64,000 nucleotides of DNA from Promicromonospora sp. Populi (GTDB taxonomy: Bacteria; Actinomycetota; Actinomycetes; Actinomycetales; Cellulomonadaceae): contig NZ_CP163528.1 in NCBI RefSeq assembly GCF_041081105.1, forward strand, positions 2,294,001-2,358,000. Reading direction: 5' to 3'. The notes under the pieces were generated by a model that was given only the letters and a program-made list of their open reading frames with translations, searched no databases and had not been told where the DNA came from. A program made the position numbers and the translations under genes. This document shows positions 5,144 through 21,461 of the stretch, in pieces. Each line of letters starts with the position of its first letter. The stretch's first letter is position 1.

Positions 5144-6424
5144 CTAGCTTCCCAGCGTCCCCGCCGGAAGCTCCCGCATCCTTACCAGGGGCGAGAGCAG
5201 CACGCCCCAGCAGGCGAGGCAGTGCACTGCCGCCATGACCAGGATCGTCTCGCGGACGCCGAACGCCCCGCCGAGCCAGCCCGCGACGACGCCGGCAACC
5301 GGCATGGTGCCGAAGTTCACCACCTGCATCACCGTCATCACCCGTCCGCGCAGCCCGGCCGGCACGTAGCGGAGGCGCCACGCGTTCCGGATCACGTTGC
5401 CCGCTACCACGAACAGGCCGACCAGGAAGCCGCCGGCCGCGCTGAGCGCCGCTCCCCAGCCCGGCAGGCCCGCGCCGACGAGCAGCGCGGCCGGGCCGCT
5501 GAGCAGCAGCAGGACGGTGGACGCCCGCCCGCTGCCGAGGCCACGGCTCAGGTACGGGGCGACGACGGCGCCCACCACGCCCCCGCCGCCCGCCACGGCG
5601 AGGACCACGCCGACCCCCGCCTCGGTCAGGTGCAGGTCGCGCACGAGGAACAGGACCAGGAGCGCCGTGTACCCGGTGAGCCCGAAGTTGGACAGGCCGC
5701 CGATGCCCACGAGCCACGGGATGTAGCGGTCCCGGCGCACCAGGTCCACACCCTCCCGGATGCGCGCGAGCAGCGGTTCGGCAGAACCCTCCGGCGCTTT
5801 CGCCGGCCGGGGCAGCCGGATGCGCCAGAGGCACACGGCGGACCAGAGGAACGTCACGGCGTCGAGCGCGATCCCGGCCGCCGCCGTCAGCCACTGGGCG
5901 AGGAGACCGCCCAGGCCGGGGCCGGCCACGTTCGCCGCGGACTCCGTGCCGAACAGGCGCGAGTTCGCGGACTCGAGCTGCTCGGCCGGCACCACCTCGG
6001 GCAGGAACACCTGGTACGCCGTCCGGAAGAACACCGTGCAGGCCCCGCCCACCAGACCCACCACCACGATGTGGGACAGCGTAAGAACTTCGAGCGCGTA
6101 GGCCACCGGCAGGCTCCCGAAGGCGGCGGCGGAGACCAGATTCGCGATGATCATCACCCGCCGGGCGGGCAGCCGGTCCACCCATGCACCCGCCGGCAGG
6201 CCGATCACCAGCCACGGCAGCCACGTCGCGGCGGCGATGAGCCCCATCCAGCCGGGACCGGCGTCGAGCTGGGTCACCGCAAGCAGGGGCAGCAGCGTGG
6301 AGGTCGTCGCGTTGCCGACGACACTCACCCCTTCGCCCAGCCAGAGCAGGCCGAAGGCCCGGTTGCGCGCGAGAGGCTGCGCGTCGGGGGCGGTGCCGCG
6401 GGAAGGCGCTGTCGACGTCGTCAT
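5144..6424 (-). CDS. MFS transporter, drug/siderophore-exporter type
   Basis: 426 residues with about 10-12 hydrophobic helices and the MFS loop signatures GAWVDRLPARRVMI (about residue 75-90) and RGLGSGRAS mid-protein. It resembles MFS_3/DHA3 exporters (EntS/TetA-like). It lies directly downstream of an ArsR-type regulator, with a tandem operator and promoter in the 49-bp gap. The acyltransferase operon lies further upstream on the same strand, so the pump may export a product of that locus or provide unrelated drug resistance. Confidence 0.85.
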   Translation of the reverse strand: MTTSTAPSRGTAPDAQPLARNRAFGLLWLGEGVSVVGNATTSTLLPLLAVTQLDAGPGWMGLIAAATWLPWLVIGLPAGAWVDRLPARRVMIIANLVSAAAFGSLPVAYALEVLTLSHIVVVGLVGGACTVFFRTAYQVFLPEVVPAEQLESANSRLFGTESAANVAGPGLGGLLAQWLTAAAGIALDAVTFLWSAVCLWRIRLPRPAKAPEGSAEPLLARIREGVDLVRRDRYIPWLVGIGGLSNFGLTGYTALLVLFLVRDLHLTEAGVGVVLAVAGGGGVVGAVVAPYLSRGLGSGRASTVLLLLSGPAALLVGAGLPGWGAALSAAGGFLVGLFVVAGNVIRNAWRLRYVPAGLRGRVMTVMQVVNFGTMPVAGVVAGWLGGAFGVRETILVMAAVHCLACWGVLLSPLVRMRELPAGTLGS

Positions 6425-6473: not shown

Positions 6474-7058
6474 TCACGGCTGCGAGGGGAATCCTCGCGC
6501 GAACAGGAAGACGTGCTCGCGTCGCTCCGTGTCGTCGGCCGCCTCGCCCGCCTTGCTCCGGTTCTTCCAGCGCCCCAGCAGCTCGTGGAACTCATCGCGG
6601 AGCTCGCACAGCTCCTCGGGGGTGAGCAACAGCCAGCTATCAGTGGAGAGCTCGGCCCGGGCCCACTCGTCGTCCCCCTCGGGGCGCCCCAGCCAGGTGC
6701 GGGCACGCTCGACCTGGCGCGCCAGCATGAACTCCTCGGCCGCCACCGCCTGGCGCTGGCTCTCGGCGTCCTGCGGCAACGTCGACCGGCCCCAGCTGAT
6801 GGACCGCGCCGCGCGGCGCCACCAGCGTTCGCGCCCGTCGCGGGCCAGCTCCGGCGCCTCCTCGACGAGCCCGGCGGTTGCCATCACCCGCATGTGATGA
6901 CTGATGCTCCCGACGGCCATCCCGGTGCGCTCGGCCAGCACCGACGCTGTGGCGGGCCCCTGCGCCGTCAGCGAGTCGAGCAGCCGGGAACGGGCCGGGT
7001 TGGCCAGGGCGGTGACGGCCCTGGCCTCGGTGAGCGTACGGACATCGTCGGAAGCCAT
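6474..7058 (-). CDS. ArsR-type winged-helix regulator
   Basis: 194 residues from ATG 7058; an upstream ATG at 7106 would add 16 residues of poor character. The winged helix-turn-helix covers about residues 10-80, with the recognition region LAERTGMAVGSISHHMRVM and the ArsR-like ARSRLLDSL helix before it. The C-terminal 100 residues are helical, acidic and tryptophan-rich, as in ArsR regulators paired with MFS pumps. It lies between the last acyltransferase gene and the MFS gene on one strand. The tandem palindromes just after its stop are the likely binding site. Confidence 0.8.
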   Translation of the reverse strand: MASDDVRTLTEARAVTALANPARSRLLDSLTAQGPATASVLAERTGMAVGSISHHMRVMATAGLVEEAPELARDGRERWWRRAARSISWGRSTLPQDAESQRQAVAAEEFMLARQVERARTWLGRPEGDDEWARAELSTDSWLLLTPEELCELRDEFHELLGRWKNRSKAGEAADDTERREHVFLFARGFPSQP

Positions 7059-7110
7059 GTAGGCAGGGTAGGACGGCGCGAACAGCGACGTCGCCCTGCT
7101 GGACATCGGC

Positions 7111-8721
7111 TCAGCCCGTCGCCAGCTCCGTCAGGCGGGTCGCCCAGCGAGCCAGCAGCGCGTCCACCGTCGCGACAGCCACGGCAGTACGGGGCATGCG
7201 CGCCCGGACCGCTACGCCGTCGGCGGTGCGGGATACCCAGACCTGCAGGTCGTCGGCCCGGGTCGCGGCCGAGATGTGGTGCGCCCGCCGCTCGGCGGCC
7301 GCCGCGTGGCCGGGCAGGCGGCGGTAGTCCAGGTACGACACCTGGAAGATGTCCCGCCGCGGGAACCGCAGGGGGCGCGGCAGCGTCTCCACCACCTGCT
7401 CCAGCGGCACGGCGGACAGCTCCCGCGCGGCGCGCAGCGCCTTGCCGGTCGCGGCGAGCGCCACATCCGTGACGGCGTCAGCTCCAGCCCGGGCCAAGGC
7501 CCAGGCACCGGCGAGCGCGGGTGTGTCCACCTCGATGCGCAGCGGCACCGTGGTCGTGTGCCAGCCGACGGCGCGACGGGCCGGCTCGTCCGCGCGCGTG
7601 TGCACCGGCAGGAGCGTCTCCAGGACGGCGGGGCCGCCGAGGTCGGCGACGGCCCGGGCGAACGTGGCCAGCACGGCGGCCGACGTCGACGCCCCGACAG
7701 CCCGTGCGCGCGCGGCGACGGCGTCGGCGGTGACGGCGTCGGCCAGCGGGCGCACCACGGTGCGCTGCGGCAACCGCTCGCCGTCGGGCACACCGAGCGG
7801 GAGGGGAAAGGCGGGCAGCGCCCAGTCTCTGTCCCGGAGGAAGCCGTGCCAGGTCGCGAGCCGCGGGTCGTCGACGCCGACGTACGCCGGGCCTCTGGCA
7901 GGGCCGACCGGGGGGGCCGGGACGTCCAGCGACAGCGTCGGCGCCGCGGCCACCCTCGGGAAGGTCGCCGCGATCGGGAGAGGCGTCGTCATCGGGAAGG
8001 TCGTCGCCGTCGGGCGAGCCACCGTCATCGGGAGAGCCACCGTCATCGGGAGAGGCGACGCCGTCGAGCGACGCACAGCCACTGCTCCAGCCATCGGGAG
8101 AACCGCCGCCCCAGCCATCGCGAGAACGGGTGCTGCACACCAGGTGTGCGCCGCGTAGAGCGCGGCCAGCTCGTCGACGACGACGGTCGTGGACCACGCG
8201 TCGGTGTGCAGGTGGTCCAGGCCGAGCACGATCGTGGACCGGTCCGGTCGGCTGATCGCGGCGGGCAGGAACGCCGGGTACCCGAACGGCGCGCACCGTC
8301 TGGCGAGCTCAGCCACCAGGTGCTCGCGGGTGGCCTCGACCGTGCGGGCAAGGGCTCCGTCCTGGCGCCGCCAGACGAGCCGGGCGGGGTCGTGCCGCAC
8401 CAGACCCACGGTGTCGCCGGGACCGTCGGTCGCGGCCGGGCCTGCCGCGGGCCGGCGGACCGCCTCCACCCAGAGCCCGGGATGCCCGGCCACGAGGTCC
8501 TGGAAGGCGGCCTCCAGCGCATCGACGTCGACGGGACCGTCGACGTCGAACGCGGCCGCGATCCACACGCTCGGCTCACCGGCCTGAGCGCCGAGGAGGT
8601 GGTTGCGCTGGTTGAAGGTCATGGGCGCCGGTGCGGGCGCCAGGCCCGCACCCGGCGTCACGTCCCAGGTGAGGACCCGACCGGGCGCGGGCGCCCAGAG
8701 GTCAGCCGAGAGGACCCGCAC
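7111..8721 (-). CDS. Condensation/PapA-like acyltransferase (C1)
   Basis: 536 residues from GTG 8721, behind GGAGG. It opens with WAPAPGRVLTWD, resembling the start of mycobacterial PapA acyltransferases, and has the HxxxD catalytic motif at His170-Asp174 (HLHTDA), with Ala instead of the usual Gly after Asp. A Pro/Met/Thr-rich low-complexity insert occupies about residues 195-260. The C-terminal half keeps the second chloramphenicol-acetyltransferase-like lobe (QVSYLDYR). Such enzymes esterify or amidate a hydroxyl or amine with an acyl-thioester. It overlaps the upstream gene by 20 bp and is third in the C3-C2-C1 operon. Confidence 0.7.
   Translation of the reverse strand: MRVLSADLWAPAPGRVLTWDVTPGAGLAPAPAPMTFNQRNHLLGAQAGEPSVWIAAAFDVDGPVDVDALEAAFQDLVAGHPGLWVEAVRRPAAGPAATDGPGDTVGLVRHDPARLVWRRQDGALARTVEATREHLVAELARRCAPFGYPAFLPAAISRPDRSTIVLGLDHLHTDAWSTTVVVDELAALYAAHTWCAAPVLAMAGAAVLPMAGAVAVRRSTASPLPMTVALPMTVARPTATTFPMTTPLPIAATFPRVAAAPTLSLDVPAPPVGPARGPAYVGVDDPRLATWHGFLRDRDWALPAFPLPLGVPDGERLPQRTVVRPLADAVTADAVAARARAVGASTSAAVLATFARAVADLGGPAVLETLLPVHTRADEPARRAVGWHTTTVPLRIEVDTPALAGAWALARAGADAVTDVALAATGKALRAARELSAVPLEQVVETLPRPLRFPRRDIFQVSYLDYRRLPGHAAAAERRAHHISAATRADDLQVWVSRTADGVAVRARMPRTAVAVATVDALLARWATRLTELATG
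7942..8139 (-). repeat. In-frame degenerate tandem repeat in C1
   Basis: Short units of about 15-18 bp around CCGTCATCGGGAGAG recur and encode repeated LPMT/FPMT-type peptides in an otherwise conserved acyltransferase. The reading frame is preserved throughout. Confidence 0.65.
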
Positions 8722-10252
8722 CGGTCGCCTCCAGGGCCTCGTCCCGGCCGTCGGCCTGGCCGGCCTGCGCGGGTGCGCCGACCGGTAGGAGCTCCCCAGC
8801 CGGCTCAGGCTCGGCGACCGGCAGGAGCGCGGCCTCGAACGTGGCGGTCAGCTCGGCGATGTACCGGTCGGTGGCCGCCTGCGCCGTCGGCGTGTCCGGG
8901 GTCTGCATGACGACGTAGAGCCGGTCGGCGTCGCGGTTGATCCACAGCGACGCGTTTGCCGTGCGGCCCTCCCCCGTGAAGTGCAGGCCGTTGTCGTAGG
9001 CCGGGCGGCCGACGCCCGGGAACTTCCGCAGGTCCAGGTAGCTGACCAGCTGGGGGCTGCCGAGGGATGCGGGGTCCAGGACGCCGTCAGCCAGCATCAC
9101 ACCGAGCGCGGCGTGCACCGGGACCCGGGCCACCTTCCGGGCCTGCCGGAACGCCGCGCTCGCGCGGGGCAGGACGGTCGTGAAGGACGCCGGGACACCG
9201 CCGTCGGCCACGGGGAACGTGATCGGCGTGAAGTTGCACAGCCAGCCCTGCGTGGTCTCGAACCCGGGTCCGCGCGAACCCACCACGGTGACCCCGAACC
9301 AGTTCGTCGCTCCGGTCAGCCGGGCGTCGGTGAGCGCAAGCGCGGCGAACACCGCTCCGGTGAAGCGGGCGCGGTGCGCGGCGGCCAGCTCGTCCATGCG
9401 CGCAAGGCCGTCGGCGTCGAGGAGGGTCGCGGAACGGATCCGCACGGGCGCGGTCTCGCCGGGCGCAAGCCCCAGGTCGAGGACAAAACGCGGCATCCGC
9501 CCGTCGTGCGCGGCCACGGCGTCGACCCAGGCCTGGATCTCCGGAGCGTCCGCCGGGGTCGCGGCGGCGAGCTCGTGCTCGGCCCGGGCGTGGTCGAGGC
9601 ACGACCGGGCGGTCTCGCGCCGGGGCTCGGGCTCTGGTCCGGCGCCGAGCTCCGCCGCGTACAGCTCCTCGATCTCGCTGAGCACCATCACCCCCGACGC
9701 GCCGTCGGTGAACGCGTGGTCGCAACCCCAGAACAGGCTGAACCCGTCGTCGGCGACAACGGCTCCGAGGGCGAACGGCGCCCACGAGTCGGGTCGACAG
9801 GCGGCGTCGAACGTCGCGTTGAGGTGCATGGTCACCCACTCGTCCCACGGGAGGCCGGGCACCGGGGAGAGCGCGGGCACCCCCACCACCTCGAAGTCGA
9901 CGGCGTCCGGGGAGACCAGGTGCCGCACCGGGGTGCCGCCCGCGGCGCAGCCGTCGACGTCGAACCAGGTCCGCAGGCCCTCGTGCCGACGCACCAGCCG
10001 GGTCAGGGCCCGCGCCAGCGCGGCGGCGTCAAACTCCCCTTCGAGGCGGCTCGCCGTGCCGGTCCAGGCCCGGTGCCGACCGCCGGACTCCCGCCGCGCG
10101 GCATAGGCGCCCAGATGGTCGCCCTGCAGGAACGACGGCGGCCCCGGGTCGACCGGAGCCCCCTGCGCGGCGGCGAGCGCATCCGCCGTCGGCCGCACGT
10201 GCAGCACCTGCCCTGGTGACGGGGACCAGGTGCCCATCGCGCCGAGAATCAT
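8702..10252 (-). CDS. Condensation/PapA-like acyltransferase (C2)
   Basis: 516 residues; its ATG overlaps the stop of C3 by four bases (ATGA), so translation is coupled. It starts with a TWSPSPGQVLHV segment like PapA N-termini and carries a complete HxxxDG motif at His179-Asp183-Gly184 (HAFTDG), with the second-lobe NWFGVTVVG and QLVSYLDLR regions. Of the three operon members it has the most canonical active site. Expected role: transfer of a fatty-acyl or polyketide chain to a sugar or lipid hydroxyl. Donor and acceptor are unknown. Confidence 0.75.
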   Translation of the reverse strand: MILGAMGTWSPSPGQVLHVRPTADALAAAQGAPVDPGPPSFLQGDHLGAYAARRESGGRHRAWTGTASRLEGEFDAAALARALTRLVRRHEGLRTWFDVDGCAAGGTPVRHLVSPDAVDFEVVGVPALSPVPGLPWDEWVTMHLNATFDAACRPDSWAPFALGAVVADDGFSLFWGCDHAFTDGASGVMVLSEIEELYAAELGAGPEPEPRRETARSCLDHARAEHELAAATPADAPEIQAWVDAVAAHDGRMPRFVLDLGLAPGETAPVRIRSATLLDADGLARMDELAAAHRARFTGAVFAALALTDARLTGATNWFGVTVVGSRGPGFETTQGWLCNFTPITFPVADGGVPASFTTVLPRASAAFRQARKVARVPVHAALGVMLADGVLDPASLGSPQLVSYLDLRKFPGVGRPAYDNGLHFTGEGRTANASLWINRDADRLYVVMQTPDTPTAQAATDRYIAELTATFEAALLPVAEPEPAGELLPVGAPAQAGQADGRDEALEATGAGPLG

Positions 10253-11691
10253 GCGACCGCCTCACTCGTGCCGGTGGACCCGAAGGCCCGGAAGAAGCCG
10301 CGCAGCTCCTCGATCAGGGCGTCCATCGCGGCGTGCGCCGTGGGGGTGTCCGGGTAGCGGGTGGACACGTTGAGCCCGTCGTGGGTGCGTAGGAACCAGA
10401 GGTAGAGCTCGTCGGGGCCGTACGCGGGGCTGCGCAGGGTCCGGGCGTCCCAGGAGGACCAGCGCTCGGCCCCGGGAATGAACCGGGTGTCGACGTAGGA
10501 AACGGCGAAGTGCGGGCCGTCGGTGATGCCGCCCAGCTCGGCGATGCGCGCGAACGAGTAGCGCACCAGGTGCTTGCCCGCCGAGACCGCGGCGTGCACA
10601 CGTTCGACCGCCGCGGTCAGCGCGTTCCCGTCGACCACCTGAGCCGGCTCGCCCGGGCGGGCCTCGATCTCGCGCAGCACCGGGTCCACGCCGTCGAGGT
10701 CGAGGTCCACCGGGCACAGGCCGACGTACCAGCCGACGGCGGCGGCGTGCTGCGGCGCGTACCGGGTGTGCATCGGCAGCACGAACCGCAGCCGGTCGAG
10801 CCCGTGCACCCGCCGCGCGGCCTGCGCGAACGCGGCCAGCACCCCGGACTGGGCGGACGCGCCGCGGGCCCGGCTGCGGGCGCTCAGGTCGTCGGTCTCC
10901 TCCACGGTGGCCAGCGGTTCGGACCGGGAGGCCTGGGGGCGGGCGGCCTCGCCGGCGTCGGCGGCGGGGTGTGTGATGCCGTCGGTGCCGTAGCGGGGGA
11001 ACGCCGCTTCGGGTCCGAGGAAGTCCAGCCAGCGGCGCACGGGCTCGCCGTCAGCGGCGAGCGTCATGGCGAGCTTGCGGTCCTCGGCGGAGAAGTCCAC
11101 GTGAGAGCCGACCTCCAGCACGCGCAGCTCGGCGTCGGGCACGCCCCGGCGGGCGGCGTCGTACAGCGAGACGATCTCCTCGAACCACAGGAGCTGGGAG
11201 TAGGCGTCCATCACGGAGTGGTCGGCGCCGAACGCGAGCACGAAGTGGCCGGCACTCTCGGGCACGACGGTCGCCAGCACGCAGTGCGGCCAGGCGGTGG
11301 GCGAGACGTCGGCGAGCAGGCTGGGCAGCAGCGCGGTCACCTGGTTCCCGGTCAGGTCGCCGACGACGAGGTCCCGGATCGCGACGGCCTCGGCCGGGGC
11401 CGTGACCCGCCGCCAGCCCTGGCCGGCGTCGCGGGTGACCGTGGTGCGGAGCACCTCGTGCCGGCTCACCCAGGCGTGGATCGCGCGGCGCAGCGGCTCT
11501 GGCTCGTACGGCCCGGGAACGCGCATCACCGAGCCGATCCAGGAGCCCGGCTCGGAGTCGCGCAGGTGGGCCTCGTGCCCCGGGGACAGGGCTCGCGGGT
11601 CCTGCTGCCAGCGCCCGGCGTCGGCGCGCGGGGTCCAGGACGTGACGGTGCCGGCGGGGAGGTCGTAGGCCGAAAGCTCGGTGTATTCCAT
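10249..11691 (-). CDS. Condensation/PapA-like acyltransferase (C3)
   Basis: 480 residues, first gene of the C3-C2-C1 operon. The N-terminus (SAYDLPAGTVTSWTP) again matches PapA openings. The catalytic motif is His158-Asp162 (HSVMDA), with Ala in place of Gly. The C-terminal AVSYVDTRF corresponds to the conserved second-lobe strand of this fold. The 5' leader is about 65 bases from the predicted promoter at 11771-11800. Whether the DA variants (C1, C3) are active, or are structural partners of C2, cannot be decided from sequence. Confidence 0.7.
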   Translation of the reverse strand: MEYTELSAYDLPAGTVTSWTPRADAGRWQQDPRALSPGHEAHLRDSEPGSWIGSVMRVPGPYEPEPLRRAIHAWVSRHEVLRTTVTRDAGQGWRRVTAPAEAVAIRDLVVGDLTGNQVTALLPSLLADVSPTAWPHCVLATVVPESAGHFVLAFGADHSVMDAYSQLLWFEEIVSLYDAARRGVPDAELRVLEVGSHVDFSAEDRKLAMTLAADGEPVRRWLDFLGPEAAFPRYGTDGITHPAADAGEAARPQASRSEPLATVEETDDLSARSRARGASAQSGVLAAFAQAARRVHGLDRLRFVLPMHTRYAPQHAAAVGWYVGLCPVDLDLDGVDPVLREIEARPGEPAQVVDGNALTAAVERVHAAVSAGKHLVRYSFARIAELGGITDGPHFAVSYVDTRFIPGAERWSSWDARTLRSPAYGPDELYLWFLRTHDGLNVSTRYPDTPTAHAAMDALIEELRGFFRAFGSTGTSEAVA

Positions 11692-11770
11692 GCAGGCGGG
11701 TCCCTAGATTTAGTAGGTGGGCACGGCCAGCACGATGTCGGACGAGTTCCGCGGTCCCCTTGCGGCGACC

Positions 11771-11800
11771 TTTATACCGGATATAGAGGGTTAAAGTCAG
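11771..11800 (-). promoter_or_regulatory. Promoter of the C3-C2-C1 operon
   Basis: On the minus strand CTGACT (11800-11795), an 18-bp spacer and TATAAA (11776-11771) form a sigma70-type promoter. The same -10 context recurs at 16782 before another gene of the locus. The rest of the 183-bp divergent region has no assignable operator. Confidence 0.55.
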
Positions 11801-11874
11801 CCACCTGGGTATGGTTCACCTCAAATACAACCTTCAGGCCCCGCACAGGGCACGATCACAATGGAGGGGCGAGC

Positions 11875-13392
11875 GTGCCCAACCCGCCGTCCGCACTACG
11901 GCTGCAGTTCGCCGACGACATGTTCCTGCGCAGGCACGACGGCGACTCCAGCCCCGCCGTGAACCAGGTGCTGTGGCGCCTCGACGGCCCGTACGACGCT
12001 GACCGCCTGCGCGACCTGGCCACCGGCATCGCCGCCGGGTCGCTGCACCGGCGGGTGGTGCGCGCCCGCGTGCCCGGCGCGCGGCACCGGTGGGCACCAG
12101 CTGAGACCCTGCCCGTCGTCGACCTGCAGACCACGGGCGTGGCCGAGCACGAGATCGGGACGTGGGCGCAGGCCCAGGCCGACCTGCCGCTCGACCCCGC
12201 CGGCGGCCGCTCCTGGCGGCTCGCGGCGGCGGACGTCGTGGCGGCGGACGTCGTGGCGGCGGGCGCCGTGTCGGCGGGCGCCGTGTCGGCGGGCGCCGGT
12301 GGTGCGGCGATGAACATCGTCGGTGGCGTCCTGGTGGCGCCGGGCGGTGCGCGTCCCGGGGGCGGGCAGGCTGCCGGTGCGGTGGTGGGCGCGATCGTCT
12401 CGCTCACCTGCGCGCACGCGGTGGCCGACGGCGCGGCGCTGATCGACGCCCTCGTACGCGCCTCGACGCACGCCGACCCGATAGTCGTGCCGGCTTCCGC
12501 GCGCGGAACCCGCGCGCTGCTGTCCGATGCCTCCGACGCCGCCCGCCAGGCCGCCGCCGTCGCACGCTGGGCGCAGGCCAAGGCGCGGCAGGCCGCGCGA
12601 ACGACCCAGCGGGCCGAGCCGGTCGTGACAGCCCAACGAGCCGAGCCGGTCGCGGCCCCCGCTCCGCCGGTCGTGCAGGTCACGGCCACCGTCACGGCCC
12701 CGGCCGACGACGCCGCCTGGCGCGCGCCGGTCCTGCACGTCGAGCTGCCGGCCGACCGGGTCGCCAAGGTGGCCGCGGAGCACGGCGGAACCCCGAACAC
12801 CTGGTTCGTGACGTTCCTCGCGCGTCTGGTGCATGCCACCGGCCGGTTCCCGGGCGAGCCCGTACCGGTCGCGCTGCCCGTGTCCACTCGCGGGGAGGAC
12901 GACCCGCGCGCCAACTCCACCAAGGTCGCCCGGGTCACCATCCCGGCCGACGTGCTCGCCACGCGCGACCTCGGCTGGGTCCGGGCGGCCGCCAAGGAGG
13001 CGTACACCGCCGTCGGGCAGACCGGGCCGGGCGTGGCGCCGGTGCCGCTGGAGCTGGTCCAGATGCTGCCGGACACCGTGGTGAGCCGGCTGCCGCAGCC
13101 GCCCGTCGCGGCGGCCATGGCGTCCAACCTTGGCACGCCGCCGCCCGGGTACACGCATGCGCCCGGCGGCTCCGTGCGCGCGGTGGCGACCCTGTCGCAC
13201 TACCAGGGCGCGTCCGCCACCGAGCTGCGCGCCGCGGGCGGCGGGCTGGTCGCCTTCTGCACCACGGTGGGCCAGGCGACGGTGGTCAGCGTCGCCGGGC
13301 TCGATCCCGACCGGGTCGCCGACGAGGCGCACCTGCGCCACCTCGTGCTGTCGGAGGCGGACGCCTGGGGGCTCCCGGCGGTCCCGTGGTGA
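11875..13392 (+). CDS. Condensation-type acyltransferase homologue (C4)
   Basis: 505 residues from GTG 11875 with GGAGGGG upstream. It belongs to a different branch from C1-C3 and is close to C5: both begin with a DDMFLRR/DDLFLRT segment and share a QVLWRL/QTIWRL strand and GARHRW/GARARW. The HxxxDG motif is His181-Asp185-Gly186 (HAVADG). A 15-bp-unit repeat encodes residues about 117-142, and an Ala/Gln-rich linker with two RAEPV units follows the active site. The C-terminal LSHYQG segment resembles wax-ester-synthase/condensation second lobes. It is divergent from C3. Confidence 0.65.
   Translation: MPNPPSALRLQFADDMFLRRHDGDSSPAVNQVLWRLDGPYDADRLRDLATGIAAGSLHRRVVRARVPGARHRWAPAETLPVVDLQTTGVAEHEIGTWAQAQADLPLDPAGGRSWRLAAADVVAADVVAAGAVSAGAVSAGAGGAAMNIVGGVLVAPGGARPGGGQAAGAVVGAIVSLTCAHAVADGAALIDALVRASTHADPIVVPASARGTRALLSDASDAARQAAAVARWAQAKARQAARTTQRAEPVVTAQRAEPVAAPAPPVVQVTATVTAPADDAAWRAPVLHVELPADRVAKVAAEHGGTPNTWFVTFLARLVHATGRFPGEPVPVALPVSTRGEDDPRANSTKVARVTIPADVLATRDLGWVRAAAKEAYTAVGQTGPGVAPVPLELVQMLPDTVVSRLPQPPVAAAMASNLGTPPPGYTHAPGGSVRAVATLSHYQGASATELRAAGGGLVAFCTTVGQATVVSVAGLDPDRVADEAHLRHLVLSEADAWGLPAVPW
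12226..12300 (+). repeat. 15-bp coding minisatellite in C4
   Basis: Five degenerate 15-bp units (two GCGGCGGACGTCGTG, then GCGGCGGGCGCCGTG-type variants) encode AADVV, AADVV, AAGAV, SAGAV and SAGAG just before the catalytic region. The unit length keeps the frame. Confidence 0.8.
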
Positions 13393-13406
13393 GGGGCGGC
13401 TCCGGC

Positions 13407-14734
13407 TCAGACACCTCCCGAGACCGCGTCGGCCGCCGCAGCGACGGCCCGGTCGGGGGGCACCAGCCGGGCGCCGAGCGCGGTGGCGCGGGCCGCGGTG
13501 GCGTCGTCGAGCACCTCGGACAGTGCGGTGGTGAGCACACCCGGGCGCGGGAGCGTGCTCGCGCGACGCGCGACGCCGACCCCCGCCTCTCGCAGCAGCT
13601 CGCCCCAGATGGGCTGGTCCGCGGAGTACCAGCCGACGACGGCGGGCAGCCCCGCCCGCAGCACGGCCCCCGTGGTGCCGGCCCCGCCGTGGTGCACGGC
13701 GGCGCGGCACCGGGGCAGCACCCTCGCGTGGTCGACGGAGCCGACGACGCGCACGCGCTTCTCGTCGAGGCCCGCTCTGCCGGCACCGTCCCCGCCGCCG
13801 GCCGCCGAGAAGTCGTTCCAGCCTGCGCTGACCAGCGCCCTTACCCCGAGGTCCGCGCAGGCGGCGGCGACGGCGGCGAGCAGCCCGGGCGGGTCCGCCA
13901 CGGGCATGGAGCCGAACCCGACGTAGACGGGCGGGTCCCCGGCGTCCAGCCACGCCTCCAGTTCGTCGAGGCCCGGGTCGAGGCCGGCGCCGGCGCCGGC
14001 GCCGAGCCGGCCTCCCCGAGGCGAGCCCGGGCGTCGTCGTCCAGAGCGAGGAACCCGATCAGCGGGCGACGCGGACCCCACTCGTCGGCCAGCCCAGGCA
14101 CGAGCACCGGGTCGTAGGCCTGGACCTCCACCGCCCCGGCGTCGCGCAGGCGGGTGGGCAGGTGGACCCGGGTGGAGCCCAGGCCGAGCTCGACGCGCTG
14201 CTCGTTCTCCGCCCGGCGGGTCAGGCCCCAGCGCACCCGCTCGCCCAGGGCCCAGGCCGCGCGGGTGGCGGCCGGCCCACGCACCCCGTTCACGGGCGAC
14301 ACGGTGCCGTTGGACCGCACCGGGCAGTAGTGCAGGGCGGCCATGCGCAGCCCGCGCGACTCGGCCACGGCAGCGGCCACCTCCTGCCCGAGCAGGCCGG
14401 TCACGACGGTGTCGGCGCCGCCGACGTCGTCCAGCAGCGCCAGCAGGCCGGTGCGCAGCTCGTCCCAGCCCGCCGACGAGATCGCGCGCAAGGCCCGCAC
14501 CCGGCGCACGGGACTGCCCGAACGCAGGTCGCGCCGCACCAGGTCGGAGCCCAGCAGCGCGGCCGAGTCGATGCCCAGCGGCACCGGATCCAGGCCCAGC
14601 CGTGCGGCCAACGGGACGAGGTTCGGCGCGACGCCGGTCACCACCTCGTGCCCGCGACGGCGCAGCTCCAGAGCCACCGCGAGGGCCGGCTGGACATCTC
14701 CCCTGCTGCCCACCAGGGCCATGACGTGACGCAC
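13407..14734 (-). pseudogene. GT1-family glycosyltransferase with an apparent -1 frameshift
   Basis: The first reading frame (14734 down to about 14000) begins ALVGSRGDVQPALAVALELRRRGH, the classic start of GtfA/Rv1524-type UDP-sugar glycosyltransferases. The second frame (about 14000 down to 13407) supplies the C-terminal half, with PPVYVGFGSMP, the donor-binding VGSVDH...HHGGAGTTGAVLRAGLP signature and VGWYSADQP. They join in a GGCGCC repeat near 13984-14010, where one base appears to be missing. Either the gene is broken, a -1 frameshift is used, or the base is a sequencing error in a GC-compression region. Corrected length would be about 435 residues, normal for the family. Confidence 0.75.
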
Positions 14735-14811
14735 GCGCGCACTCTACTCACCCGCAGACCATCCCCAGACCACCCGCTCTCAGGCCACCCACACACCTGC
14801 CCGGAGGTCCC

Positions 14812-16233
14812 GTGACCAGCCCAGCGACCGCAGCCGGCCGAACGGCCAGCAATCGCCTCACCTACGACGACGACCTGTTCCTGCGCACCCGGCGGGTGCT
14901 CGGCGTCGCCGTGGTCAACCAGACCATCTGGCGGCTGCCAGTGCCGCTCGAGAGCCGAGCCGTGCACGCCCTGCACGGCGGCCTCGCGACCGGCCCCCTG
15001 CAGCGGGTGGTGCGGCCGGGCCGCCTGCCCGGCGCCCGGGCCCGGTGGTCGGCCTCCGACCTGTCGCTCGACCCGGTGATCGAGTCCACCCCGGTACCCG
15101 ACGACGCCGTGCTCACCTGGGCCGACCGGCAGGCGCAGGCGAACCTCGACCCCGAGAACGGCCCCACCTGGGCGCTGGCGGCCGCGCCGACGACGAGCGG
15201 CGGGAGCCTGCTCAGCTTCGTGACCTCCCACGTCGTGGCCGACGGCGGGATGCACATGGGCGCGCTCCAGGCCGCCGTCGCCGCGGCGGGGTTCCGGGCG
15301 GACGACGTCGGCGCGTTCGCCTCGGAGTCGGGTCCCCGCCGCCTGCCCAAGGAGGGCGAGCGCATCCGGACCGGGCTCGTGGCCGACCTGCGCGACGCCA
15401 CCGGCCAGGCCCGAGCGGCCGTGGGCGGCCTGCGGCAGGCCGCCCGGCAGGGCCCGGTGCCGCCGATGATGGCCCAGCAGGCGGCCGACCGGCCCCGGCC
15501 GGGGCCGCGCACCGACGACAACCAGCCCGCCCATCCGCCGGTGGTCGTGGTCGACACGGACGCCGCCACCTGGCACCGCGCGGCCCACGCGGCCGGCGGC
15601 ACCGCGAACAGCCTGCTGATCGCGGTGTGCACGGAGATCCTGCTCGCCGCCGGCGTCGCGACCGCCGGTATGCCGGTGCGGGTATCGGTGCCGGTCAGCA
15701 TGCGCCGCAAGGACGACCTGCGGTCGAACGCGACGTCAGGGATCTCGATCGCCGTCGACACCACCGTGACCCCCGCGCCCGAGCGGGCCGGGGTGATAGC
15801 CGACATGGCCCAGATCCGGGCGAGCACCGCGGCCGAGTTCCGGGGCCTCGCGGCCGGCACCCGGGTGGACACCCTGGGCCCGCTGAAGCCGCTCATGCAG
15901 ATGGTGCCCGACGCCGTCGCCAAGCGTGCCGCGCGGGACGCCACCGCACCGCTGTGCCTGGCCTCCAACCTGGGCCGGCTGCCCGCGGCGTTCGCCGCCC
16001 CGCTGGGCACGCCCGCCTCCAGCGTGCTCATGCGCGGGGTCACGCAAGGGCTGACCCGCGGGCGGCTGCGTCAGATGCGCGGCGGCCTGGACGCCTGGTG
16101 GTCCGAGCACAACGGCGTGGCGACCCTCGGGGTGCTGGGGCTGGACATCGAGCTGCTCGGTGAACCCGGTCAGGTGCAGGCGGCCATGGAGAGCGTGTAC
16201 GCCAGGCACGGCCTCCCGGCCCGCTTCTGGTGA
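14812..16233 (+). CDS. Condensation-type acyltransferase homologue (C5)
   Basis: 473 residues from GTG 14812 with GGAGG five bases upstream. It is a paralogue of C4 (shared YDDDLFLRT, NQTIWRL and GARARW segments) with a full HxxxDG motif at His140-Asp144-Gly145 (HVVADG). The second lobe is recognisable from VPVSMRRKDDLRSN and CLASNLGRLP. It is transcribed divergently from the glycosyltransferase with 77 bp between the starts, implying a shared control region. It probably acylates the same glycoside or lipid as its neighbours. Wax-ester/diacylglycerol-acyltransferase-like activity is an alternative. Confidence 0.65.
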   Translation: MTSPATAAGRTASNRLTYDDDLFLRTRRVLGVAVVNQTIWRLPVPLESRAVHALHGGLATGPLQRVVRPGRLPGARARWSASDLSLDPVIESTPVPDDAVLTWADRQAQANLDPENGPTWALAAAPTTSGGSLLSFVTSHVVADGGMHMGALQAAVAAAGFRADDVGAFASESGPRRLPKEGERIRTGLVADLRDATGQARAAVGGLRQAARQGPVPPMMAQQAADRPRPGPRTDDNQPAHPPVVVVDTDAATWHRAAHAAGGTANSLLIAVCTEILLAAGVATAGMPVRVSVPVSMRRKDDLRSNATSGISIAVDTTVTPAPERAGVIADMAQIRASTAAEFRGLAAGTRVDTLGPLKPLMQMVPDAVAKRAARDATAPLCLASNLGRLPAAFAAPLGTPASSVLMRGVTQGLTRGRLRQMRGGLDAWWSEHNGVATLGVLGLDIELLGEPGQVQAAMESVYARHGLPARFW

Positions 16234-16305
16234 CCCACTTGGTTGTGGGCGGGACCGTTGCGCCTAGAACGGGCACATAGTCGCAATGATCGCGCCCGCA
16301 ACCAA

Positions 16306-16734
16306 TCAAGCGGCCATGTGGACCGGCGGGTGCCCGTTCTGCTGCGGAGCGGCGCTCGGCTCCTTGGTCCTGCGGCGCCGGGTAGTGACCAGGACGCCCG
16401 CCGACGCCGCCGCGAACGACAGCACGCCGAACACGGTGGACCACGCGTCCAGGTCGACCTTCAGGGCGAAGACGATGATCGCCGCGACCGGTGCGACCAT
16501 CCCGACGAGCACGGACACCCGCACCAGGCGCAGCGCCCGCGCGGTCCGCGCGACAAACCAGCCGACGGCAGCCCAGGTCAGGAGCGTGAGCGCGATGCCG
16601 GCGAACGAGGCGAACGCCTCGCCGGCGTTGTGGGCGCCCTCGGGGGGCCCGAAGTAGAAGAGCTCCGTGGTTGCCACCAGGACCAGGAACCCTACGATCG
16701 CGACCGTTCCGATCACGAGAGAGCGTCTCAACAC
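16306..16734 (-). CDS. Four-helix membrane protein of unknown function
   Basis: 142 residues with four predicted transmembrane helices (about 5-23, 40-63, 70-90 and 97-117) and a basic, proline-rich cytoplasmic tail beginning TTRRRRTKE. I do not recognise a family. It has its own promoter 40-80 bp upstream whose -10 matches that of the acyltransferase operon, and it closes the locus on the right. A structural or export-related role for the lipid product is speculation. Confidence 0.6.
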   Translation of the reverse strand: MLRRSLVIGTVAIVGFLVLVATTELFYFGPPEGAHNAGEAFASFAGIALTLLTWAAVGWFVARTARALRLVRVSVLVGMVAPVAAIIVFALKVDLDAWSTVFGVLSFAAASAGVLVTTRRRRTKEPSAAPQQNGHPPVHMAA

Positions 16735-20121: not shown

Positions 20122-21461
20122 CTACGCCGAGTCCACCGGCGAAGGGAACGTCACCGGAAGGCTCACTGGCTGGCGGATCCACAGGGTCCGGTCCCAGGTG
20201 ACGTCCGCGGCGGGGATCCGCAGGACGACGTCGAGCCGCCGCAGGATCGTCTCGATGGCGATGCGGGCGATCACGCGCGCCGTGCGGGGCGCGGGGCAGG
20301 CATGCGGGCCGGTGCCGAACGAGACGTGGGCGCGGCTGCCGACATGGTCCCAGGGGTCGCCCGTGTCCATGCGCGGGTCGGTGTTCGCGGCATGGATCCC
20401 CAGGACGAGCGGGTCGCCGGCGGCGATGAGCTTGCCGTCCAGCATCACGTCCTGGCGGGCGAACCGCGGCAGGGTGTTGATCGTGGGGGTGGAGCGCCAG
20501 AGCACCTCGTCCATCGCGTTGTCGAGGTCGATGCGGCCGCCGTGCAGCCGGCCGAGAACCGCGAGTCCGTGAGGGTGACCAGCAGGGTCTGCGCGATCCA
20601 GGCCGTCAGCGTCAGGTTGCCCGAGTACGCGACGGTGAGCAGCGTGTGGGCGACCTCGACGTCGTCACGCATCTGCGGGTGCGCGACCAGCGAGCTGGCG
20701 AGGTCCCGCTTCGGGGCCTCGCGGCGCAGCACGACGAGCTCAGCGAGCATCTGGTCTACGTCGATCGCCGCGGAGGCGGCGTCCGGGGCGCCCGCGGCGA
20801 CCCGGCGCGTCAGGTCGAACAGGCGCTGGCCGTCCTCGGGGTCGAAGCCGACCATGTCGGCGATGACCAGGAACGGGATCACCGACGCGTACTCGAGCAT
20901 CAGGTCCGCCCGGCCCCGGTCCTGGAACCGGTCGATGAGCAGGTTGCAGATGGAGCGGGCCTTGGCCGCGGTGATGCCCTCGGAGAGCTGTTCGAACGCG
21001 TCGTCGAGCGGCTCGCGCAGGCGCTGCCGCAGCGCGCCGTCGCTGTGGGTGGCGGAGAACCGCTGGTGCGACGGGAAGACCGGGCGCAGGCCCGACGTCT
21101 TGGGCAGGCCGCCGCGCGCGTGCCCGTTCCAGGTCCGCGGGTCGGTAGCGAAGAGGTGCTCGTTGCGCATGACGTCGTAGACGAGCCGCTGCCCCATGAC
21201 CAGCCAGGCGGGCACGCCCGGCTCCAGCTCGACGGGGGCCACGTCGCCCCACTCGCTCGCGAGCGCGTCGTAGAACTCGCGCGGCTCGGACAGCTCCGAG
21301 GCGTGCACCAGGGGCTTCAGGCCGGAGACGTCGTCCAGCCGGACAGGCTTGGTGTCACGCCAGGGCCGTTCCTGCGTGTTTCGCATGTCGTCGAGCAATG
21401 CGGCCAGCCCATCTGTGCAGTCATCCTGGATCGCCCGGGGTGAACCCACCCGTCTTCCCAC
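20122..21461 (-). pseudogene. Cytochrome P450 with an apparent -1 frameshift
   Basis: The N-terminal frame (from GTG 21461 or ATG 21386) covers the substrate-recognition and I-helix regions (AYSGNLTLTAWIAQ). The C-terminal frame starts at about 20555 and holds DEVLWRSTPTINTL and the heme-binding FGTGPHACPAP with its cysteine. The frames meet in a GCCGG-rich stretch where one base seems missing. The combined product would be about 430 residues, normal for a soluble bacterial CYP. The I-helix lacks the usual acid-threonine pair and the K-helix reads ExxxR, so it may be an unusual P450. It is divergent from an IclR-family regulator that may control it. Confidence 0.7.

Follow-up and report, generated by a model that had tools for sequence, protein, structure and literature searches.

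An acyltransferase and glycosyltransferase block of Promicromonospora sp. Populi as a probable acyl glycolipid biosynthetic unit

Mycobacterial lipooligosaccharides (LOS) are acylated glucosyl-trehaloses that require pks5, Pap, glycosyltransferase (GT) and MmpL genes (PMC5706390, PMC7261415, PMC11361433, PMC13354803, PMC2936551), and loss of PapA4 abolishes them (PMC5706390, PMC7261415). Outside the mycobacteria, a review lists Rhodococcoides fascians NBRC 12155 as a producer of a succinic trisaccharide tetraester (PMC4365757, Table 3), while Rhodococcus sp. I2R is described as making succinoyl di- and trisaccharide esters, with four papA genes given in print as candidates (PMC8396431). According to the same paper, how succinoyl trehalolipids are encoded and regulated is still poorly understood. 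Here, we examine a block of five acyltransferase genes (C1 to C5) and one GT1-type glycosyltransferase gene in Promicromonospora sp. Populi, found in a 64,000-nucleotide stretch (hereafter, the window) that spans positions 2,294,001-2,358,000 of a 5.22 Mb single-contig genome.

With a probability of about 0.62, we read this block as a single unit that makes, without a polyketide synthase (PKS), an acyl glycolipid built on trehalose or glucosyl-trehalose and destined for the cell surface or for secretion; the lipid is probably a soap-like sugar lipid. The reading is carried by the genes themselves, their catalytic motifs, their conserved linkage, their relation to PapA2 and their presence in a reported producer. 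An earlier note on this DNA had proposed that the locus builds and exports a multiply acylated glycoside. The general idea is well supported by the linkage across families, the PapA2-like enzymes and the occurrence of the module in a reported producer of acylated glucosyl-trehalose. As a mechanism the proposal is partly supported: its general type is correct, and its details on the family of C4 and C5, on an intact GT and on a fixed exporter of the MFS (major facilitator superfamily) type are wrong or unproven. The analysis goes beyond it in showing that the genes form a conserved unit and in proposing a probable class of product.

The acyltransferases and the glycosyltransferase

The block is laid out as follows.

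7111-8721, minus strand: C1, PapA-type acyltransferase, 536 aa (PF00668 above cut-off; PapA2 6aef; HLHTD)
8702-10252, minus strand: C2, PapA1/PapA2-like acyltransferase, 516 aa, the best matched of the five (phmmer match to PapA2 6aef; HAFTD)
10249-11691, minus strand: C3, PapA-type acyltransferase, 480 aa (profile match to PapA2 6aef; HSVMD)
11692-11874, no strand: divergent intergenic region of C3 and C4, probable shared promoter/operator (conservation among congeners)
11875-13392, plus strand: C4, condensation-fold-type acyltransferase and C5 paralogue (HAVAD; ~30% identity to C5)
13407-14081, minus strand: open reading frame (ORF) with the C-terminal half of the GT1 glycosyltransferase, homology from near 13973 (HHGGAGTT; PF06722 above cut-off)
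13841-14734, minus strand: ORF with the N-terminal half of the GT1 glycosyltransferase in the other frame, homology to near 14003 (PF03033 above cut-off)
14812-16233, plus strand: C5, WS/DGAT-like condensation-fold acyltransferase, 473 aa (fold and HxxxD)

C1, C2 and C3 all match PF00668 as free-standing members of the condensation superfamily (35.2, 43.3 and 44.4 bits; cut-off 30.6), and the closest solved structure of each family is PapA2 (6aef), a Pap protein rather than a domain of a nonribosomal peptide synthetase (NRPS). The phmmer search with C2 returned this trehalose-2-sulfate acyltransferase as its sole match (E 5.1e-41, residues 6-471). The C1 family profile matches it over most of its length (E 1.1e-51) and the C3 family profile at E 1.2e-42, both scoring well ahead of NRPS condensation domains. 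The HxxxD motif lies at one aligned position and is present in 38/38 C1 (HLHTD, residue 170), 39/39 C2 (HAFTD) and 39/39 C3 (HSVMD) sequences. C1 and C2 are each monophyletic with a support of 0.999, while that of C3 is only 0.684. By these similarities, C1-C3 are assigned to the PapA type, and transfer of acyl groups to a glycolipid acceptor is predicted. The three genes are coupled, as had been proposed, with end-to-start overlaps on the minus strand of 4 bp (C3/C2) and 20 bp (C2/C1).

Of the description of all five enzymes as PapA/condensation-type, the PapA part is borne out for C1-C3 and is not supported for C4 and C5, neither of which matches the Condensation or PapA models. C4 has no Pfam or NCBIfam match, its R. 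fascians counterpart likewise has no Pfam match, and C5 has none in either database above any cut-off. Against TIGR02946, the model for wax ester synthase/diacylglycerol acyltransferase (WS/DGAT), C5 scores 22.9 bits (3.6e-5) with a cut-off of 309.95 and C4 gives no match; we therefore reject C4 and C5 as curated WS/DGAT enzymes. The C5 profile does match the fold of the WS/DGAT structure 6chj, with PapA2 absent from the matches listed for it, and congener C4 proteins also match C5 at ~30% identity. HxxxD is aligned in 35/35 C4 (HAVAD) and 38/39 C5 sequences, consistent with a condensation fold, so that the motif sits at comparable positions in all five families, as first claimed, and is kept in 206/207 aligned members overall (short fragments dropped by length, the L056 C5 gene counted in the C4 set and the L040 C5 omitted). 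The C4 members group as one clade, for which there is no support value, and the C5 side of the tree is disturbed by a broken C5 in L068. Judged from profiles and motif, C4 and C5 form a condensation-fold family of their own, separate from C1-C3 and distantly WS/DGAT-like.

A minus-strand GT1 gene sits between the plus-strand C4 and C5. Its two halves match PF03033 (N-terminal) and PF06722 (C-terminal), each above cut-off, and HHGGAGTT, invariant in 11/11 aligned relatives, is present in the C-terminal half. Among solved structures, the C-terminal half is matched best by GtfA (3h4i, 1e-20), followed by GtfB (1iir) and a sterol glucosyltransferase (5xvm). The earlier description of C4 and C5 flanking a GtfA-like GT is borne out to this extent, except that the gene is not a single ORF: it is split over two frames, and congener proteins shift frame between 14003 and ~13973. 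The linker at this place is rich in GC and differs in length among relatives. In all 30 full-span loci that have a GT (defined below), the gene is one frame.

One possible explanation, which we consider somewhat unlikely, is that the GT is truly inactivated in this strain, leaving a disaccharide (trehalose) polyester as its only product and the trisaccharide form to its relatives. The break does hit the sole GT orthologue found in the genome, and loss has precedents: P. umidemergens lacks the module GT, with C4 and C5 29 bp apart and distant GT1 paralogues elsewhere only (165-210 bits), and three Saccharopolyspora genomes, along with one metagenome-assembled genome of the Propionibacteriales, give no GT match at E<=1e-20. 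Two Corynebacterium loci are also without GT. Against inactivation, the halves retain 82-91% (N-terminal) and 76-88% (C-terminal) identity to six congeners. A second window gene, cytochrome P450-like by eye (20125-21398, minus strand), is split alike near 20550, as would follow from sequencing or assembly error; it is one frame in 7/7 congener loci, and its halves are 74-81% and 84-92% identical to theirs. Of the 19 window genes for which congener proteins gave a match, these 2 are broken. Because the GT halves keep high congener identity and a second gene is split likewise, the frame break points to an assembly error or a very recent mutation. P. soli has an intact GT, and together with P. 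umidemergens it offers a natural experiment.

Conservation of the unit and its surroundings

Scanning named genomes for the C5 family with two short peptide patterns yields 42 loci; because only these two patterns were used, absence from the list proves nothing. Five loci cut by contig ends (L036, L038, L056, L071, L072) were removed before counting. C1, C2 and C3 are each present in all 37 remaining full-span loci, a second C5-type gene in 32 and a GT in 30, while the presence of C5 in every locus follows from its use in finding them. All six genes, the GT1 and the five for acyltransferases, are thus real and conserved as a unit. Gene order and orientation are the same in 30/37 (C1<C2<C3<C4>..C5>), and the other seven are from Gordonia and Corynebacterium. 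Gene starts in relatives were set by script and are uncertain for the L065 C1, the L059 GT and the L049 C5. Independent scatter of the genes, which the earlier note had named as its refutation, is rejected by the 37/37 co-occurrence, even though lone C2-type genes and a reduced locus, described below, exist.

To place the unit within its class, we turn to a survey of 394 genomes with the best 4 candidates scored per genome. A C2-profile match occurs in 59/394 and a C5-profile match at E<=1e-30 in 36, of which 33 have both; in 7/7 genomes with C5 at E<=1e-80, the C2-profile match lies within ~6 kb. C2-type genes are found without C5 in 26/59 genomes, so that membership of the PapA family does not by itself mark the unit. 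Closer to the window, 9/12 sampled congeners have a close C2, and 24 genomes from the family's other genera give two weak matches. The module is present in Promicromonospora and Nocardioides, which are actinobacteria without a mycolate layer. Mirror-tree correlations are high (0.92-0.98, 32 loci), though not specific, because shared species history alone yields high values. Six further regions were read (L092-L097), three of which are mycobacterial or mycobacterial-type and are taken up in the final section. Of the others, L097, whose contig equals that of L039 in length, holds C1, C2, C3 and two C5-type genes, L095 holds only C5, GT and a single C3-type PapA, and L096 has a C5-like stretch inside a long frame with a C2-like gene ~8 kb off.

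The stretch that separates C3 from C4 is also unusually conserved. Over its first ~120 bp the window hardly differs from 6 Promicromonospora loci, with a block around TTTATACCGGAT, and on this conservation it is predicted to be a probable shared promoter/operator. The C4 start, a GTG at 11875, was picked by comparison with congeners. Two genes lie downstream of C1.

6474-7106, minus strand: ArsR/HTH_20 regulator, accessory (HTH_20 4e-11 for 6474-7061)
5144-6424, minus strand: MFS exporter, accessory, a candidate for product export (MFS_1 9e-30; TIGR00900 1.5e-61, below cut-off)

The proposed operon from C1-C3 into this regulator and MFS gene holds in the window, where both are downstream of C1, and does not extend to all congeners: besides the window, the pair accompanies the module only in L033, L035 and L037, and it was not found in L031, L032 or L034, where the flank is present. 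The MFS protein also loses its role as a fixed exporter, as an ABC-2 exporter pair is at the module instead in 9/42 loci (L039, L040, L059, L061, L063, L064, L068, L069, L071; identified by similarity search, with Pfam run on the L061 pair only). The MFS and regulator genes are accessory and not conserved parts of the module. In four Gordonia modules (L061, L063, L064, L069), a ~1000-aa regulator and the ABC-2 pair precede the module; the regulator of L061, the one checked, has BTAD/AAA domains.

Other features of the block are local. Tandem repeats of 18/36 bp occur at 7956-8057 within C1, at the same place as a segment (8089-7899) to which the L037 C1 fails to align. Near C5, a 142-aa protein, membrane-like by eye and without a Pfam match, is encoded at 16306-16734 (minus strand); it is present in 8/8 Promicromonospora loci and was not seen in 34 loci of other genera.

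Rhodococcus producers and the probable product

The link to a product comes from R. fascians NBRC 12155, whose genome carries the module (L067). Its lipid is described as trehalose plus a third glucose; the third sugar carries a C6 acyl group and the first a succinate, and each trehalose unit bears an acyloxyacyl chain, in which a 3-hydroxyacyl group is itself acylated (PMC4365757). Counted from this description, the lipid has six ester bonds, the same number as there are acyltransferases in the R. fascians module. The genome was searched for the PF00668 and C5 families, with PF00668 frames of at least 1189 aa set aside as NRPS. It contains four PapA-type genes in the module and one lone, and two members of the C5 family in the module and one lone. 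A 615-aa condensation protein adjoins an adenylation-like gene (by eye). Within these two families, no second locus that joins several acyltransferases to a GT was found; other acyltransferase families were not searched. The module is the most likely source of the reported succinic trisaccharide tetraester. The lone PapA (L083) is C2-like, with 347 bits to the C2 profile, and has by eye a mycolyltransferase-like gene, a GT2-type transferase-like gene (~1.3 kb from the PapA) and an MFS-like gene as neighbours; we consider it a candidate for a separate, single-acyltransferase acyl-trehalose locus.

The second producer is matched by architecture. The I2R papA genes measure 1461/1431/1404 bp with gaps of 17/3/1507 (PMC8396431, Table 5), and the closest of 17 compared Rhodococcus loci, L045, has 1440/1431/1401 with gaps of 17/3/1488. 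The description of the papA genes in PMC8396431 names no GT, C4 or C5 beside them. In all 17 Rhodococcus loci, C1 has another PapA next to it, separated from it by rhodanese-type and often SufE-type genes; in L045, these lie at 944-2267, and by clustering such genes occur in 17 and 14 loci, respectively. The third glucose of the related lipids of BS-15 and isolate Q is beta-linked according to a figure legend in PMC8396431. In Promicromonospora, glycolipids have been reported without identification (PMC13274763), and elsewhere a papA3 near a GT is described in an NRPS cluster (PMC13206832). Whether the locus is unreported, as first suggested, thus has a divided answer: four Rhodococcus papA candidates are in print (PMC8396431), while in open-licence papers we found neither a description of the whole module nor an experimental test of any of its genes.

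For the sugar core, the order of steps, the assignment of enzymes to acyl groups and export, we infer the following scheme. Trehalose would come from general metabolism, as an OtsA-type gene (PF00982) lies elsewhere in the window's genome, PF00982 being present in both genomes examined. The GT1, where present and intact, would add a third glucose from UDP-glucose in beta linkage, which is the linkage that an inverting GT1 enzyme forms from this donor. C1-C3 would esterify sugar hydroxyls with acyl-CoA as donor, and C4 and C5 would attach the remaining acyls, which might include succinate, a short chain on the third glucose or the secondary acyls on 3-hydroxyacyl chains. The product may then be exported by MFS in some Promicromonospora and by the ABC-2 pair in several other genera. 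The absence of a linked PKS or acyl-CoA ligase, noted at the outset, is confirmed: none of the genome's 6 ketoacyl-synthase matches falls within the window, which excludes a linked pks5-type PKS, and neither does any of its 14 AMP-binding matches.

Several observations weigh against a trehalose-based unit of this kind. The GT is absent in 7/37 loci and broken in the window, and therefore the third sugar cannot be general. In one of the seven genomes with the strongest C5 matches (G410), the nearby C2-profile match is a C3-type gene, and the 20 kb that were read hold C5, GT and no other PapA, with neither C1 nor C2. R. fascians has two more GT1-type genes besides its lone PapA and lone C5-type gene, and the agreement of six acyltransferases with six ester bonds may be a coincidence of number only. 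The producer link consists of one strain and an architectural match to a second through its published papA layout; both short I2R gaps are matched by L045 and L060 only, with the other 15 loci differing more. The fold of C4 and C5 leaves their acyl acceptor unspecified, and we know of no Promicromonospora glycolipid structure.

An acylated glycoside with another core, such as a glycosylated terpene, polyketide or glycerol, is unlikely in our view. It would make the resemblance to PapA2 a matter of the closest solved structure, and it draws on the nearest solved relatives of the window GT, which act on glycopeptides and sterols, on the many aglycones that GT1 enzymes glycosylate and on the lack of any trehalose-synthesis gene seen in the module. 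For C1 and C3, however, PapA2 outscores NRPS condensation domains by a wide margin, it is the sole match of C2, and the lipid of the reported producer is trehalose-based (PMC4365757). A glycopeptidolipid-type locus is rejected, as the window's own genome has PF00668 matches in just two places, the module and a 2345-aa frame near 297 kb with AMP-binding matches as well; glucosyl-trehalose lipids fit better than the glycopeptidolipid analogy first drawn. A storage-lipid locus, with C4 and C5 as wax-ester or triacylglycerol synthases beside unrelated PapA genes, is very improbable, since the weak TIGR02946 match, the 6chj fold and the PF03007 domain carried by some relatives of a mycobacterial C5-like protein are set against a score far under the cut-off, three PapA genes linked in 37/37 loci and an R. 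fascians C4 without a Pfam match.

We return to an acyl glycolipid on a trehalose or glucosyl-trehalose core as the preferred reading. A broader and more tentative proposal is that the module is the genetic basis of actinobacterial succinoyl trisaccharide (glucosyl-trehalose) biosurfactants, that it is a PKS-free version of the mycobacterial LOS machinery, and that presence or absence of the GT predicts a tri- or disaccharide chemotype. As a conserved six-gene block is found in a reported producer, the question of the genetic basis becomes directly testable. The module can also be used to look for biosurfactant producers not yet explored, and it suggests a common enzymatic core of environmental trehalose lipids and mycobacterial LOS.

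Comparison with described systems

Among the further regions, L092 (Mycolicibacterium rutilum) resembles a LOS locus. Its C2-like PapA and three C5-like genes are accompanied by a methyltransferase, an MmpL, a GT1 related to the module GT (448 bits) and an ORF of 2085 aa that is PKS-like by eye, and by analogy we infer that it is one. The mycobacterial-type regions L093 and L094 have a C2-like gene with two and three C5-like genes, respectively, and no GT in view. Of the genes of LOS loci (pks5, pap/papA4, GTs and MmpL12), the window's module has Pap and GT types, whose action on a trehalose core is a prediction. L092 differs from it by a PKS-like ORF and MmpL, whereas the window is without a ketoacyl-synthase match and no MmpL is seen at its module. 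If L092 is a LOS locus, the window's unit would be a PKS-free relative that uses ordinary acyl-CoA.

The PapA1-PapA2 system of sulfolipid synthesis resembles the module in that C2 aligns with PapA2 over almost its full length. The SL-1 partner genes of that system include a PKS and an AMP ligase; the window has no match to either and holds five acyltransferases rather than two. WS/DGAT enzymes (TIGR02946, PF03007) share the fold of C5 and its HxxxD, while the score of C5 is far under the curated cut-off.

The module is also close to what is described for the succinoyl trisaccharide lipids of R. fascians NBRC 12155, BS-15, isolate Q and I2R. The Rhodococcus loci differ by a further PapA. The same module is present in NBRC 12155, the papA layout of I2R is nearly equal, and the product requires what the module would provide, namely one glucosylation of trehalose and several acylations.

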